Assembly: GCA_012840345.1 (NCBI GenBank) | Contig: DULO01000093.1 | Span: 65,788-109,994, forward strand | Length of the DNA: 44,207 bases | Origin: Candidatus Fermentithermobacillaceae bacterium | GTDB lineage: Bacteria > Bacillota > Sulfobacillia > Fermentithermobacillales > Fermentithermobacillaceae | Reading direction: 5' to 3' | Part shown: positions 15,366 through 36,289 of the stretch, in pieces | Numbering within the stretch: the first letter of the stretch is position 1 | How the letters are laid out: each line of letters begins with the position of its first letter | Made by a program: the position numbers and the translations under genes | The notes under the pieces: generated by a model | The model's database searches: none | The model's input: only the letters and a program-made list of their open reading frames with translations | What the model was told of the DNA's origin: nothing

Positions 15366-15418
15366 GAAGAAACCCCCCTTGTGTTGTTGTGCCAGTGCCT
15401 TGGGTTGGGCACCTGTTG

Positions 15419-15445
15419 TTAGCACTCTCGGTTGGTGAGTGCTAA
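15419..15445 (-). promoter_or_regulatory. CIRCE element (HrcA operator)
   Basis: TTAGCACTC (15419-15427), N9, GAGTGCTAA (15437-15445): an exact match to the CIRCE consensus. It lies between the promoter and groES, so HrcA should repress groESL and heat should relieve it. No hrcA gene is in the window. Confidence 0.97.
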
Positions 15446-15454
15446 CCGAAGGAT

Positions 15455-15484: not shown

Positions 15485-15549
15485 CATTAGGCATGTGGGT
15501 TTGCGGGTCGTGGCACAGTGTCCGTGATGCGGAGCCCGTGACAAGAGTC

Positions 15550-16278
15550 TTATCTGACGACGATCAGGGGGGCCATCTTCTGATATGTCTTCTCGCCTAT
15601 GCCGGGAACTGCCACGACATCGTGAGGATCTTTGAAGGGCCCGTGTTCGGTGCGGTAGGTTATGATCGCGTTGGCCAGTGAAGGGCCGATCCCCGGCAGC
15701 GCCTCAAGTTCTTTTGCAGTCGCGGTGTTAAGGTTTATGGGGAAACTCACGCCGCCTGAACCAGAGTTGCCGCCTCCTGTCGATCCCGCTCCGGCTCCAC
15801 TTGTTCCTGCCATACCGGTCCAACCTGGGGGCAGACTCTCCCCTTTCCGGGGCACATATACTTTGTCAGAATCCCTGAGCACCGCCGCCAGGTTAAGCAT
15901 GTCCAAGTCCGCGTCATCGGCGGCTCCCGCCAGTTCAATGGCGTTGTGTACCCGTTGTCCTTCTATCAACTCGTAGACTCCGGGTCTCAGCACGGCGCCT
16001 GCCACGTGCACTACGATAGTGGGGACCTCCGGGGAACCGTCTTTGAGTCCGGACGAAGGACTGCCGTTATCCAGGTTGTCGTCACCCTGGTCTCCTGGAC
16101 CCGAACCGCCCGAAACCGGATAACCCTCAAGTCCGGTCCCGATACCGTCCTGGCCGAAAGGCTCAAGCACTACCCCTGAAGATGACGGCCAGACTCCGTG
16201 CCACCAGAGACTGACGGCCCCGATGAGGAACAAAGCGGACACGAGGTAGATAACGATATCCACGCGGTAGCGGTTCAT
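15550..16278 (-). CDS. comEA: ComEA family DNA receptor (SLBB plus helix-hairpin-helix)
   Basis: Membrane-anchored double-stranded DNA receptor for transformation. The product is 242 residues. The N-terminal TM helix is at about residues 8-28. An SLBB domain follows (IVVHVAGAVLRPGVYELIEGQRVHNAIELAGA), then a Gly/Ser-rich linker. The C-terminal two-hairpin HhH region has INLNTATAKELEALPGIGPSLANAIITYR and VVAVPGIGEKTYQKM. In many Bacillota comEA is directly upstream of comEC; here groESL and an export cassette lie between them. It is divergent from degV across a 258-bp gap. Confidence 0.93.
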   Translation of the reverse strand: MNRYRVDIVIYLVSALFLIGAVSLWWHGVWPSSSGVVLEPFGQDGIGTGLEGYPVSGGSGPGDQGDDNLDNGSPSSGLKDGSPEVPTIVVHVAGAVLRPGVYELIEGQRVHNAIELAGAADDADLDMLNLAAVLRDSDKVYVPRKGESLPPGWTGMAGTSGAGAGSTGGGNSGSGGVSFPINLNTATAKELEALPGIGPSLANAIITYRTEHGPFKDPHDVVAVPGIGEKTYQKMAPLIVVR

Positions 16279-28784: not shown

Positions 28785-30416
28785 TTGTTCGATGTGCTGC
28801 TCAGAGGCGGAACGGTCGTAGACGGCAGCGGTCGCCCCGGTTTCCGGTCAGACGTGGCCATTAAGGACGGGAAAATACAAGCGGTACAAGACTTGTCCGA
28901 GGCAGTCGCGGAAAAAGTAATTGATGTCAAAGGATTGGTCGTTTCCCCCGGTTTCATAGACATGCATTCCCATTCAGATCTTTCCATCCTGACTCATCCA
29001 AAAGCCGAGAGTTCCATTTCCCAAGGTATTACTACCGAAATAGTGGGCAGTTGCGGATGGTCGCTCGCGCCCGTCAAAGAGGAAACCAAACAGAGCGTCT
29101 TGCGGGGCCTCCTGTCAGGTCTCGTTCACCCTGAAGCCTACGAGAAACTGGACTGGTCGTGGCATTCCTTTGGTGAACTCATGGACAAGATGGACAAGGC
29201 CGGCACCGGCGTCAACGTCGCCCCGCTGGTGGGCCAGAGCCTCTTGCGAGCGCACGTCGTCGGTACTGAAAAGCGGGGTGCCGTAGGCGGCGAGATTGAC
29301 GCAATGAAATGCCTCCTGCGAGACGCCTTGGAAAGCGGAGCGTGGGGCATGTCCACCGGCCGCAGCTACCTCCCCGGAGGGAACGCGCCCACGGAGGAGA
29401 TCATCGCCTTGGCCCAAGTGGTCGCCGAGTTCGACGGACTCTACTCAACTCATATGAAAAATGAAAGCGATGAACTGTTTGAAGCCGTAGACGAAGTGAT
29501 TAGAATAGCGGAACTCACGGGCGTAAAGGCCGAAATCTCCCACCACAAAGCCCTGGGCAAAAGGAATTTCGGCAAAGTGAGAAGGAGCCTCGAGATGATC
29601 GAGAACGCGCGTCGAAAGGGATTGCGCATCTCGGCGGACTGCTATCCCTATGAGTTCTCTCAAGCCTCCTCCCTCGCCAGGTACCTGCCTCCCGAAGCCA
29701 TGAAGCTCCTCGAGTCGCCCGACGGCACCGCGCCGGCCGCACCGACCATGGCTACTTTTGAGCGGGCGCAACGGCTCTTGAGAGACCCCGGTTTCATGGC
29801 CAAGGTTAAGGACCTGCCGGAAGTACAGGCCGCTTCAAAGAGGTTCGGTGATTACTACATCGTGAAGTGCCCGTCCCGTCCGGAAGCGGAAGGGCGAGTA
29901 CTGGAAGAGTACGCGGCCGAAGCAGGTAAAGACGCGCTTTCTCTGGTTTTTGAGTTCCTTCTCGCTGACGGCTTGGACGTATGGGCGGCTTCGGCCATCA
30001 GCATGGACGATGTGCACGATGTAATAAGCGCCGCGTTCGTCATGCCGGGCACCGACGCCTTCGCTCTCGATCGCCCGATAACGCCAATACCTGCCCATCC
30101 GAGGCACTACGGCACTTTCCCTAGGGTAGTCGGACGGTTCGTAAAGGAAGGCCTCTTCTCGCTGGAGACCGCGGTCATGAAGAGCACGTGGCTGCCGGCG
30201 AGAGCGGTGGGACTGTCCCAGAGGGGCCTAATCGAGCCCGGGTACTGGGCGGACTTGGTCGTGTTCGACCCCGATACCTTGATGGATACGGCCACGGGTA
30301 CCGAACCCTACGCCCGCGCGGAAGGCATCAAGCATGTGTTCGTAAACGGCGTGCAGGCTATGGAAAACGGCGTGGTGAAGGCGGCGTTCGCGGGGAGGGT
30401 TCTTAGGAAGAACTAA
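28785..30416 (+). CDS. N-acyl-D-amino-acid deacylase / D-aminoacylase family amidohydrolase
   Basis: Zinc amidohydrolase expected to release D-amino acids from N-acyl-D-amino acids. The product is 543 residues. The beta-sandwich plus TIM-barrel layout shows FDVLLRGGTVVDGSG at the N-terminus, the metal pair HSHSD (H61, H63) after GFIDM, the catalytic loop SCGWSLAP with Cys, YSTHMKNESD, KAEISHHKALG, and a C-terminal VFDPDTLMDTAT strand. The start is TTG 28785 with AAGGAGG 8 nt upstream. It is divergent from the sigma operon. A dipeptidase-like or other cyclic-amide specificity in this broad family cannot be ruled out. Confidence 0.9.
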   Translation: MFDVLLRGGTVVDGSGRPGFRSDVAIKDGKIQAVQDLSEAVAEKVIDVKGLVVSPGFIDMHSHSDLSILTHPKAESSISQGITTEIVGSCGWSLAPVKEETKQSVLRGLLSGLVHPEAYEKLDWSWHSFGELMDKMDKAGTGVNVAPLVGQSLLRAHVVGTEKRGAVGGEIDAMKCLLRDALESGAWGMSTGRSYLPGGNAPTEEIIALAQVVAEFDGLYSTHMKNESDELFEAVDEVIRIAELTGVKAEISHHKALGKRNFGKVRRSLEMIENARRKGLRISADCYPYEFSQASSLARYLPPEAMKLLESPDGTAPAAPTMATFERAQRLLRDPGFMAKVKDLPEVQAASKRFGDYYIVKCPSRPEAEGRVLEEYAAEAGKDALSLVFEFLLADGLDVWAASAISMDDVHDVISAAFVMPGTDAFALDRPITPIPAHPRHYGTFPRVVGRFVKEGLFSLETAVMKSTWLPARAVGLSQRGLIEPGYWADLVVFDPDTLMDTATGTEPYARAEGIKHVFVNGVQAMENGVVKAAFAGRVLRKN

Positions 30417-30436: not shown

Positions 30437-30537
30437 GCGAGCGGCCTGCCGGGAGGCTTTCGCCCATCGAGGGTCTCGATTATCAGCCCCCATCGAACGT
30501 TCTAGGACCGGTGGGGACTGTCCGGCAGGCCGCTCGC
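30437..30537. other. 101-bp three-way-junction inverted repeat
   Basis: A perfect 16-bp stem (30437-30452 with 30522-30537) encloses two further helices: ATCGAG-GGT-CTCGAT (30466-30480), and CAG-x-CCCCA (30484-30492) with TGGGG-x-CTG (30512-30520). It lies between two convergent genes. No T-run follows on either strand, so it is not an ordinary terminator. It could be a structured RNA, a processed 3'-end element or a small non-autonomous repeat. No target-site duplication was seen. Confidence 0.6.
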
Positions 30538-30556: not shown

Positions 30557-31936
30557 CTAATGATTCAACGCGTCCTGCAATGCTTCTAGGATGACCTGCT
30601 TCACTTCGTTTTCGTCCATCTCCAAAGGTTCCTTGGAACCGACCTGAGCTAGCTGGGGGGTTCCTCCTCCCCTAGCCCCTACCAATGAGGCGATTCTGGC
30701 TGTCACCGTCCGGGCGTCCGGCTTCGAGTCGGAACTGGCCACAATCGCCTGGAACCTCGGCTCTAGCGTGAAGAAGACGGCAGGTACCTTGACCGCCTCC
30801 GATACTCGCTTCACGGCCATCCGCAGTTCTTCCACGCTCTTGCCCGGCAGGTGCTTTACCAGGGCTTCGTGGGCGGCTGCGCCGGCGGCCTCCCGGATCA
30901 TGCCGGCAATCTCCTGCTCCAGCAGGGCTTTCCGCGCGTCCTCCAGGGATTTCTCCAGGCTGACCACTTTATCGGTCAGGCCCGTTACGGCTGCCGGGAC
31001 CGACGTCCATGATTGGGACAAGATCTTGGCTGTCTCAGACAGGAACCGCTCCTTCTGCCGGTAGTCTCTGAGGGCCCGGTTTCCGCACCGGAACACGACG
31101 CGCACCCCTCCGTGGGCGCGGTCAATCTGGTTTATCTTGATCAGGCCGACTTGGCCGGTCGAGGTAACGTGGGTTCCGCCGCAGGCGCAGGCGTCAAAGT
31201 CGCCGACGTACACCACGCGGATGTTTTCGGCTGATATGGGCAACCGGGTCCTTATCTCTTCGGGAAGCTTCCCCGCCTCATACTCCTTGGCGAACACAGG
31301 GATGCTTCGGAAGACGATCTCGTTTGCCCTGTCTTCAACCCTGGCCGCGTCTTCTTCAGATAGGGACGGTATCGCCAAGTCAATGGTCACGTACTCCTCG
31401 CTCAGGTGAAAGCCGACGGTCTTGGCGTCCAAGAGTTCCTCAAAGGCACGTGACAAGATGTGCTGCCCCGTGTGCTGCTGCATCAAGTCAAACCTGAGGT
31501 CCCAGTCGATTTCACAAGTTACATTTGCGCCTCTGAGCAGGGCGGCGACCTCTTCCCGCGCGGGCGTCCCGGCCGTTCCTTCCGTATCCGCCGTCCCGGT
31601 CGTTCCTTCCCTATCTGCCGTCCTGGTCGTCTCCGCGGTCTCTGTTAGAGATGCCGCTAATGCCGTGGGGCTAAGAGATACGAAGTGGAGGATCTTGTCG
31701 CCTTCCTCAAGCACCTTGGAAACTGCCAGTTCCCCGCCCCCTAGCCTCTCTTGAATCGACTGGTCCTGGAGCCGTAACACCCCGGTGTCGGACGGCTGTC
31801 CTCCCCCTTCAGGATGGAAAATGGTCTCCTTTAGAACTACTTGTAACTGACCATCTTTAAACTCCGCCGAAAGCACTTGGGTGGAGTATGCCTTATCGAA
31901 AGGTAAATCCCAGTAAACCCGTTTGGTGCCGGTCAT
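30557..31936 (-). CDS. AlaX-type alanyl-tRNA editing protein (with DHHA1 domain)
   Basis: Hydrolyses mischarged tRNA-Ala (Ser or Gly). The product is 459 residues. The N-terminal barrel has ETIFHPEGGGQPSDTG. The editing domain carries the zinc ligands HTGQH (about residues 155-159) and CACGGTH (about 249-255). The C-terminal region is coiled coil plus DHHA1, with GARGGGTPQLAQVG. A Thr/Glu/Gly-rich insertion encoded by three 27-bp repeats separates the barrel from the editing core. The start is taken as ATG 31936; the adjacent ATG at 31939 is equally possible, and the open frame to 32044 has no ribosome site. Last of an ABC-F, nitroreductase, alaX series on the minus strand. Confidence 0.92.
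   Translation of the reverse strand: MTGTKRVYWDLPFDKAYSTQVLSAEFKDGQLQVVLKETIFHPEGGGQPSDTGVLRLQDQSIQERLGGGELAVSKVLEEGDKILHFVSLSPTALAASLTETAETTRTADREGTTGTADTEGTAGTPAREEVAALLRGANVTCEIDWDLRFDLMQQHTGQHILSRAFEELLDAKTVGFHLSEEYVTIDLAIPSLSEEDAARVEDRANEIVFRSIPVFAKEYEAGKLPEEIRTRLPISAENIRVVYVGDFDACACGGTHVTSTGQVGLIKINQIDRAHGGVRVVFRCGNRALRDYRQKERFLSETAKILSQSWTSVPAAVTGLTDKVVSLEKSLEDARKALLEQEIAGMIREAAGAAAHEALVKHLPGKSVEELRMAVKRVSEAVKVPAVFFTLEPRFQAIVASSDSKPDARTVTARIASLVGARGGGTPQLAQVGSKEPLEMDENEVKQVILEALQDALNH
31566..31646 (-). repeat. Three 27-bp tandem repeats inside the AlaX-type gene
   Basis: Units at 31566-31592, 31593-31619 and 31620-31646 (plus strand GTCCCGGCCGTTCCTTCC then GTATCCGCC, diverging in unit 3). 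The frame is kept, giving 9-residue repeats of the type TADREGTTG / TADTEGTAG. This is probably a variable-length linker. Confidence 0.75.
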
Positions 31937-32068
31937 CATGCGTCCCTCTTTCGCTATAGCACTGTCGCCTAAGCTGTCGCTTGAGCGCTGCTGCCAGGCA
32001 CGGCCGCAGGCAACGCTGCCGGAGCAGCACACCGGCACCAGCACCGGCGCGTTGCCTCGACTTCATCG

Positions 32069-35247: not shown

Positions 35248-35269
35248 CTTCTCGCCCCGGTGCGAGAAG
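35248..35269. other. Hairpin at the left edge of the 31-bp array
   Basis: CTTCTCGC (35248-35255), loop CCCGGT, GCGAGAAG (35262-35269): a perfect 8-bp stem that overlaps the first array unit by two bases. It may mark the array boundary. Confidence 0.5.
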
Positions 35270-35671
35270 TAGCAGGATTCATACCACCGAGCGGAGGTAG
35301 TTGTAGGATTTCTACCACCGAGCCGAGGCAGTAGTAGAACTCGTACGACTAAGCCGGGGTGGTTGTAGAATTCCTACAACCGAGCCGAGGTAGAAGTAGA
35401 ATTTCTACGACTGAGCTGAGGCAGTGGTAGGATTCTTACCACCGAGCCGGGGTAGTAGTAGAATTCCTACCACCGAGCCGAGACGGTGGTAGAATTCTTA
35501 CCACCGAGCCAAGGTAGTAGTAGAATACCTACCACCGAGCTGAGGCAGTAAGTAGAATTCCTACAACTGAGCCGAGGTGGTCGTAGGATTCCTACCACCG
35601 CTCCGAGGCAGTAGTAAGATTCTTACCACTTACCCGAGGTAGTGGTAGAATTTCTACCACAAGGCCCGGTT
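35268..35671. repeat. Array of thirteen 31-bp palindromic tandem repeats
   Basis: Units start at 35268, 35299, 35330, 35361, 35392, 35423, 35454, 35485, 35516, 35547 (32 bp), 35579, 35610 and 35641. Each is a dyad close to GTRGTAGAATTCCTACYAC followed by a conserved CGAGCCGAGGY linker; there are no unique spacers. Paired changes keep the symmetry: unit 4 has T-A where units 6, 8 and 13 have G-C at dyad positions 3/17, and unit 12 has A-T instead of G-C at 7/13. The last linker base alternates T/C in most neighbouring units, hinting at growth by 62-bp duplications. 31 bp is close to three helical turns. The unit length and stops in every frame argue against coding. Confidence 0.95.
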
Positions 35672-35683
35672 AGTCTTTCGAAA

Positions 35684-36034
35684 GCCAGTTCGTGGGAATG
35701 GGACCCCCAGACTGGAGATCAATACCGGAGGATCGACCGGTACCTCTCGGAGCAAACGGTCAAGATTGACATGCATCCAGGAAAGACAGCCGCACGCGGC
35801 GCGAAATCTCCTTCAGGAAAACCCGCCCCAGGATCTCTTGACCAGACTCTGTCTTTCCACAGGCCGCTCCAATCCTACTTCAAACACCTGACCAACCAGG
35901 GCTTCGCGATAACCAGGCTTGAGGAGTGGATCTCCCACAAGAAGAGCCAGCCAGGCCCAAGAGCTGCCGCGGAGAACCGGGCGCGGAAAGAAATCCCTCT
36001 TTTCCTCTTCATAGAAGCCAGGGTTATCTTCTAG
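35684..36034 (+). pseudogene. C-terminal remnant of a class I SAM-dependent methyltransferase
   Basis: About 116 codons from SSWEWDPQTGDQYRRIDRYLS through MHPG, LSFHRPLQSYFKHLTNQGFAITRLEEWISHKKSQPGPRAAAENRARKEIPLFLFIEAR to TAG. This matches the C-terminal third of a common clostridial SAM-dependent methyltransferase type. The N-terminal Rossmann half, with the SAM-binding GxGxG, is missing; immediately upstream is the end of the 31-bp array. The open frame begins with a GTG at 35642 inside the last repeat, which cannot restore function. A roughly 15-residue insertion follows MHPG. I interpret it as a truncated gene, presumably inactive. Confidence 0.75.
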
Positions 36035-36140: not shown

Positions 36141-36171
36141 AATGGTGTATCATATAGGCACAAACAAGCGC

Positions 36172-36239
36172 GGTTCTGATTACGGTTTGGTTCGGACTAC
36201 GGTTCGCTTCTGATTACGGTTCGGTTCCGATTACGGTTC
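36172..36239. repeat. Four 17-bp tandem repeats upstream of the GNAT gene
   Basis: GGTTCTGATTACGGTTT, GGTTCGGACTACGGTTC, GCTTCTGATTACGGTTC and GGTTCCGATTACGGTTC run head to tail, ending 50 bp before the GNAT start. They could be regulator sites or simple repeats. Confidence 0.8.
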
Positions 36240-36289
36240 GCGGTGCCATTCTGAGTGACGAACTCTAGGCCGGGAGGCGCGCAGGAATA

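Follow-up and report, generated by a model that had tools for sequence, protein, structure and literature searches.

The window, the whole stretch of 44,207 nucleotides analysed here from the draft genome of a Candidatus Fermentithermobacillaceae bacterium (G000), carries a 101-bp element at positions 30437-30537, between two convergent genes as the first-pass annotation of this DNA had placed it. Leading into it on the + strand is a 543-aa ORF of the amidohydrolase family (28785-30416; NCBIfam NF006560, 1.6e-54, 185 bits, under the 340-bit cut-off). Facing that gene on the - strand is a 495-aa AlaX-like ORF with an uncertain start (30557-32044), which matches TIGR03683, TIGR00344 and NF040865, all under their cut-offs. 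The product of the AlaX-like ORF is related to alanyl-tRNA editing proteins, and its best six named relatives are five from Candidatus Fermentithermobacillaceae and one from Bacillota. A 27-bp repeat (31552-31630; 2.9 copies) lies within this ORF, and its unit length is in-frame. The element sits near-symmetrically in the gap, 20 nt past the amidohydrolase stop and 19 nt from the AlaX-like stop.

The element is bounded by two 16-nt arms, 30437-30452 and 30522-30537, that form a perfect inverted repeat (100% complementary) around a 69-nt core (30453-30521); both the coordinates and the perfect 16-bp outer stem had been given exactly in the first-pass annotation. No 16-bp inverted repeat with a spacing of up to 150 appeared in 60 dinucleotide shuffles of the whole window, and inverted repeats whose arms reach 14 bp or more averaged 0.03 in such shuffles. 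As RNA, the + strand has a minimum free energy (MFE) of -67.7 kcal/mol (z -7.07) and the - strand one of -68.0 kcal/mol (z -8.27); of 200 shuffles, none matched or beat either. The DNA fold of the + strand has an energy of -36.8 (z -6.26). The three-way junction described in the first-pass annotation, an outer stem with two inner helices, is the MFE structure of the + strand RNA; it is not that of the - strand RNA, a four-way junction of the outer stem with three hairpins, nor that of the + strand DNA, which also has the outer stem and three hairpins. Taken alone, the core reaches a z of -2.6 on the + strand (4 of 500 shuffles equal or better) and -3.2 on the - strand (2 of 500). The folding surplus over shuffles thus sits mostly in the outer stem, with the core moderately above shuffles. 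The structure of the element is confirmed as real. Past the stem, 2 of the next 10 nt are T on the + strand and 3 of 10 on the - strand, in keeping with the original remark that a T-run is absent on both sides, and a terminator scan limited to loops of 3-8 found no site at the element.

Several other repeats were seen in the window. A tandem array at 35268-35660 holds about 12.6 copies of a 31-bp unit built on the imperfect palindrome GTGGTAGAATTYCTACCAC. In the genome this unit has 52 strand-counted matches with at most 3 mismatches (near-palindromic sites being scored on both strands), compared with 6 for the control, over 11 contigs and with many spaced 31 or 62 bp apart; at up to 2 mismatches none was seen in 13 family relatives. 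The 31-bp unit is a dispersed family of palindromic arrays and is more unusual than the 101-bp element. Overlapping the end of the array is a 130-aa ORF (35642-36034, + strand), the C-terminal part of which, judged by eye, presumably resembles the end of a methyltransferase; the ORF is perhaps a gene remnant. A 17-bp repeat (4.1 copies) lies at 36171-36240. At 15418-15446 there is an inverted repeat, GTTAGCACTC-N9-GAGTGCTAAC, which we take to match the CIRCE heat-shock operator.

Stems after stop codons were surveyed over 712,564 of the 2,357,551 bases of the genome (30%), drawn from the larger contigs. Gene calling took the longest ORFs greedily, with a minimum of 90 aa, so that unannotated small genes or tRNA genes fall into the downstream regions; a palindrome lying between two convergent genes is tallied from both sides. 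A perfect Watson-Crick stem of at least 11 bp occurs in 34 of 402 downstream regions of at least 25 nt, whereas 10 shuffles averaged 0.3. In 12 of the 34 the stem is followed by a T-rich tail, defined as 5 or more T among the next 10 nt. The remaining 22 were called T-poor, a class that also takes in stems with the U-rich part inside the 3' arm; they represent 20 distinct palindromes, two of which, the element included, are seen from both genes. In a separate count of stems of at least 8 bp with G-U pairs allowed, 12 of the 47 stems reaching at least 12 bp have a T-rich tail. T-poor 3' stems are therefore common across the sampled 30%, alongside T-tract terminators, and they constitute a set that would be skipped by terminator finders requiring a T-tract. 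Among 185 downstream regions in a 390-kb sample, those holding the element have the lowest folding energy from either gene (-71.8 and -69.7; the next lowest is -62.1). Given that long stems are found in 34 of 402 downstream regions, with 22 of the 34 T-poor, the element stands at the extreme of a locally common feature. The first-pass annotation had considered it more than a simple terminator, which is borne out by its shape; the missing T-run, with 22 of 34 long-stem regions T-poor, does not set it apart.

Other stems of this kind can be compared with the element directly. The palindrome at C111:14780-14842 (L220) also lies between convergent genes, 9 and 2 nt from their stops, and has 13-bp arms, a 37-nt core and no T-rich tail; its + strand MFE structure is unbranched and its - strand structure has two inner helices. 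At C39:79678-79734, 16-bp arms enclose a 25-nt loop 21 nt past a stop. The arms of the C111 and C39 stems are unlike those of the element in sequence, a difference that is expected if such stems are selected for pairing only. Contig C136 (L232) carries two neighbouring palindromes, 15486-15584 and 15610-15658, with the ends GGTGACACA/TGTGTCACC in common and differing interiors. In the genome, the gapped pattern GGTGACAC N20-50 GTGTCACC matches the 49-bp C136 palindrome alone, its span being too short to reach the 99-bp form.

In relatives the same gene junction looks different. By tblastn, the neighbouring order of ABC-F, nitroreductase and alaX was found in L072 (G001), L073 (G008) and L077 (G005), and the amidohydrolase gene is convergent with alaX in two relatives, G008 and G002. 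The convergent pair of G008 is separated by a bare 57-nt gap with weak folding (-19.2 kcal/mol over the first 70 nt). In G002, alaX is followed by another small reading frame, recognised by eye, and roughly 105 nt past the amidohydrolase stop stands a G+C-rich hairpin with an A tract on one side and a T tract on the other; this hairpin looks like a canonical two-way terminator. One syntenic relative is thus without a strong structure and another has an ordinary two-way terminator. As G008 keeps the pair with its 57-nt, weakly folding gap, the convergent pair does not need the element. The ORF after alaX is co-directional in G001 and G005. When 150 nt downstream of alaX were folded in nine relatives, seven were weak (-26.4 to -39.7), and the segments of G005 (-63.6) and G001 (-65.4) folded as branched junctions. 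The branched segment of G001 and G005, which at first resembled a homologue, finds matches in the four g2 genomes alone, at 83% identity in G005, G008 and G011, and none in G000. Its place is directly ahead of the co-directional ORF, or at that ORF's start, the ORF being a listed one in G001 and read from the sequence in G005; it carries an RBS-like AGAGAGGTGA, a GTG start is inferred for the ORF, and a MAFFT alignment of the segment with the element gave no convincing match. Homology with the element was rejected, and the segment was taken for a promoter/RBS region. A palindrome with an RBS-like stretch (L055:2474-2574, L053, L234, L236) is kept in four g2 genomes before an ORF that appears coiled-coil by eye, and is perhaps a regulated promoter.

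Besides a structured 3' RNA, the first-pass annotation had offered a small RNA and a mobile miniature element with 16-bp terminal inverted repeats as identities. A reading as a separate structured RNA with a function of its own, either a small RNA or a cis-regulatory one, would suit the branched fold, which is far above shuffles on both strands, and is nevertheless very unlikely. Rfam gave no match in the window at gathering scores, and under relaxed settings seven hits of 9-18 bits against cut-offs of 37-90, the best having 18.4 bits against 70. A sigma-70 consensus scan found no promoter-like site adjoining the element, its sole site being at 29479. Readings as an integron attC site, a hammerhead or a riboswitch were dropped on the motifs of these elements, a comparison that the Rfam scans test in part. 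Searching 153 other genomes of the class turned up no credible homologue. At E 0.001 one of the 153 matched, G032 (31 nt, 87%, E 5.1e-4, query 66-96), and this match, inside long ORFs and in one genome among 154 searched, was taken as chance. With a 143-bp query and the E threshold relaxed to 1, 50 of 61 relatives matched, its own genome included; among the matches listed the non-self ones were short (about 15-40 nt), the G032 match being the best of them. A covariance model, R1, was built from a single sequence with the - strand fold and is hence insensitive; in 14 family genomes (13 relatives and its own, the latter alone representing genus g1) it recovered the element itself and one hit in G001, discarded at 20 bits and E 0.84 within a 446-aa ORF. 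R1 thus gave nothing credible in the 13 family relatives. Neither the orthologous locus nor other parts of the relatives' genomes yielded a homologue, genus g1 being represented by G000 alone, and a conserved RNA of the lineage finds no backing by Rfam, DNA or covariance model. A MITE-like element inserted between the genes, which we regard as quite improbable, would account for the long, perfect terminal arms, for the absence of the element at the same junction in G008 or G002, and for flanks that agree at 5 of the 7 bases on each side, their best match. Mobile elements of this type should, however, leave several copies, and searching the genome with the arm and with the whole element, as had been suggested, found a single copy in the 2.36-Mb draft (136 contigs, with gaps in which copies could be missed). 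The arm does not recur elsewhere in this genome at 0 or 1 mismatch. At up to 3 mismatches there are 66 arm-like sites, namely the two arms themselves, one site with two mismatches and 63 with three, compared with 42 for a reversed-pattern control. Thirty of the 66 were readable for a partner: the two arms of the element form one pair, and for the 28 other sites no inverted match with under 4 mismatches was present within 300 bp. Also against mobility, no exact flanking duplication of 2-12 bp was detected, phage and plasmid searches with the element gave no match at E 0.01, and none of 44 fetched IMG/VR viral stretches carrying one arm had an inverted arm pair within 400 bp. REP/BIME palindromes and MITEs are multicopy families, and intergenic palindromes of these types are often at convergent 3' ends. 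The element resembles them in being an intergenic palindrome at convergent 3' ends and differs in that one copy was found.

Two further explanations dispense with a role in RNA ends. The element might act as DNA, either extruding as a cruciform or binding a protein as a palindrome that insulates the convergent genes, for which its strong DNA fold (z -6.3) and its character as a long G+C-rich palindrome in an intergenic gap could be cited; cruciform extrusion is poor for arms 69 nt apart, though, and the arm sequence is not reused in the genome at 0 or 1 mismatch, making a DNA function highly improbable. It might instead be a functionless product of chance or drift, such as a template-switch palindrome, in line with the lack of a credible match in the 153 other genomes of the class and with its absence from the orthologous G008 junction. 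Against this stand the shuffles, 0 of 60 of which contained such arms, and the 34 long-stem downstream regions found where 0.3 is the shuffled mean. That excess of long stems past stops suggests selection on the class of stems, though not on this copy, and chance as the origin of the element is unlikely.

We favor the first of the three identities, a predicted structured 3' RNA end, as the best supported. The element is probably a bidirectional transcript 3'-end structure between convergent genes, which would end and/or protect both mRNAs. It lies between convergent genes, it is structured on both strands, and it has the U-less palindrome of an I-shaped terminator. Compared with a canonical intrinsic terminator, it has the G+C-rich stem soon past the stop (20 and 19 nt) and lacks the T/U tract, and because the element is without a U-tract, classical intrinsic release of the polymerase is unlikely. 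RNA from either strand, soon past the stop, would form the local inner hairpins and then the 16-bp G+C-rich clamp. By one route, the hairpin behind a polymerase meeting its head-on partner would block backtracking and so set both transcript ends. By another, the stem would halt 3'-to-5' exonucleases trimming Rho-terminated or read-through RNA, such that both mRNAs would end at the stem; rho (661 bits) and PNPase (1002.5 bits) are both encoded in the genome, over their cut-offs. We propose that one or both routes operate, and infer transcription through the element, termination, collision and protection. Counting against a two-sided 3' end, the outer arms would close only once 101 nt have been made, which is presumably slow for a terminator, and the element is not conserved, as the G008 junction shows.

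Each proposed route has a precedent in systems described elsewhere. In sections of a preprint on E. coli, a nascent-RNA hairpin at ynaJ-uspE sets the position of head-on RNAP collisions in vitro and stabilises them, the collided complex having a half-life of 150 min with the hairpin versus 6 min without it (PMC13082048). The element is like the ynaJ-uspE type in being a hairpin between convergent 3' ends that is taken to act on both transcripts, but the ynaJ-uspE stem is given there as 8 bp, whereas the element has a 16-bp stem, a branched 69-nt core and no T-tract on either side, and would have a collision role by prediction (PMC13082048). At Rho-dependent ends, according to passages of PMC12350095, 3'-to-5' trimming stops at a stable structure. 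Our locus is similar in that its genome encodes rho and PNPase and a very stable structure lies close to the stop codon, and differs from the trimmed ends treated in those passages in that its 3' end is predicted from sequence (PMC12350095). The element also recalls the I-shaped (U-less) hairpins of the GeSTer class, as a G+C-rich palindrome past a gene with no U-trail, unlike which it is multibranched, has 69 nt between its arms, folds on both strands and is a terminator by prediction (PMC5335608, in part). In the same portion of that source, an M. tuberculosis I-shaped hairpin without a U-trail lowered a fluorescent reporter and had no significant effect when reversed, and evidence on the function of I-shaped hairpins is called contradictory (PMC5335608). 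A hairpin-cluster proposal, in the excerpt consulted, holds that the U trail is not essential (PMC8355165).

The element seems to be an ordinary type of signal in a large form, and resembles neither a conserved RNA nor a new mobile element. As one non-conserved copy, it leaves the broad picture unchanged. If the reading as a two-sided 3' end is right, it would offer a clean example from nature for studying how convergent transcription comes to an end in the absence of U-tracts. A wider proposal, which we hold to be doubtful, is that long, perfect stems lacking U-tracts are a common place for transcripts to end in this Firmicutes lineage, and that its convergent gene pairs use large branched palindromes of the element's type as collision-type two-way terminators. 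Were that true, the strength of the termination signal would lie in structure on both strands rather than in a T-tract.
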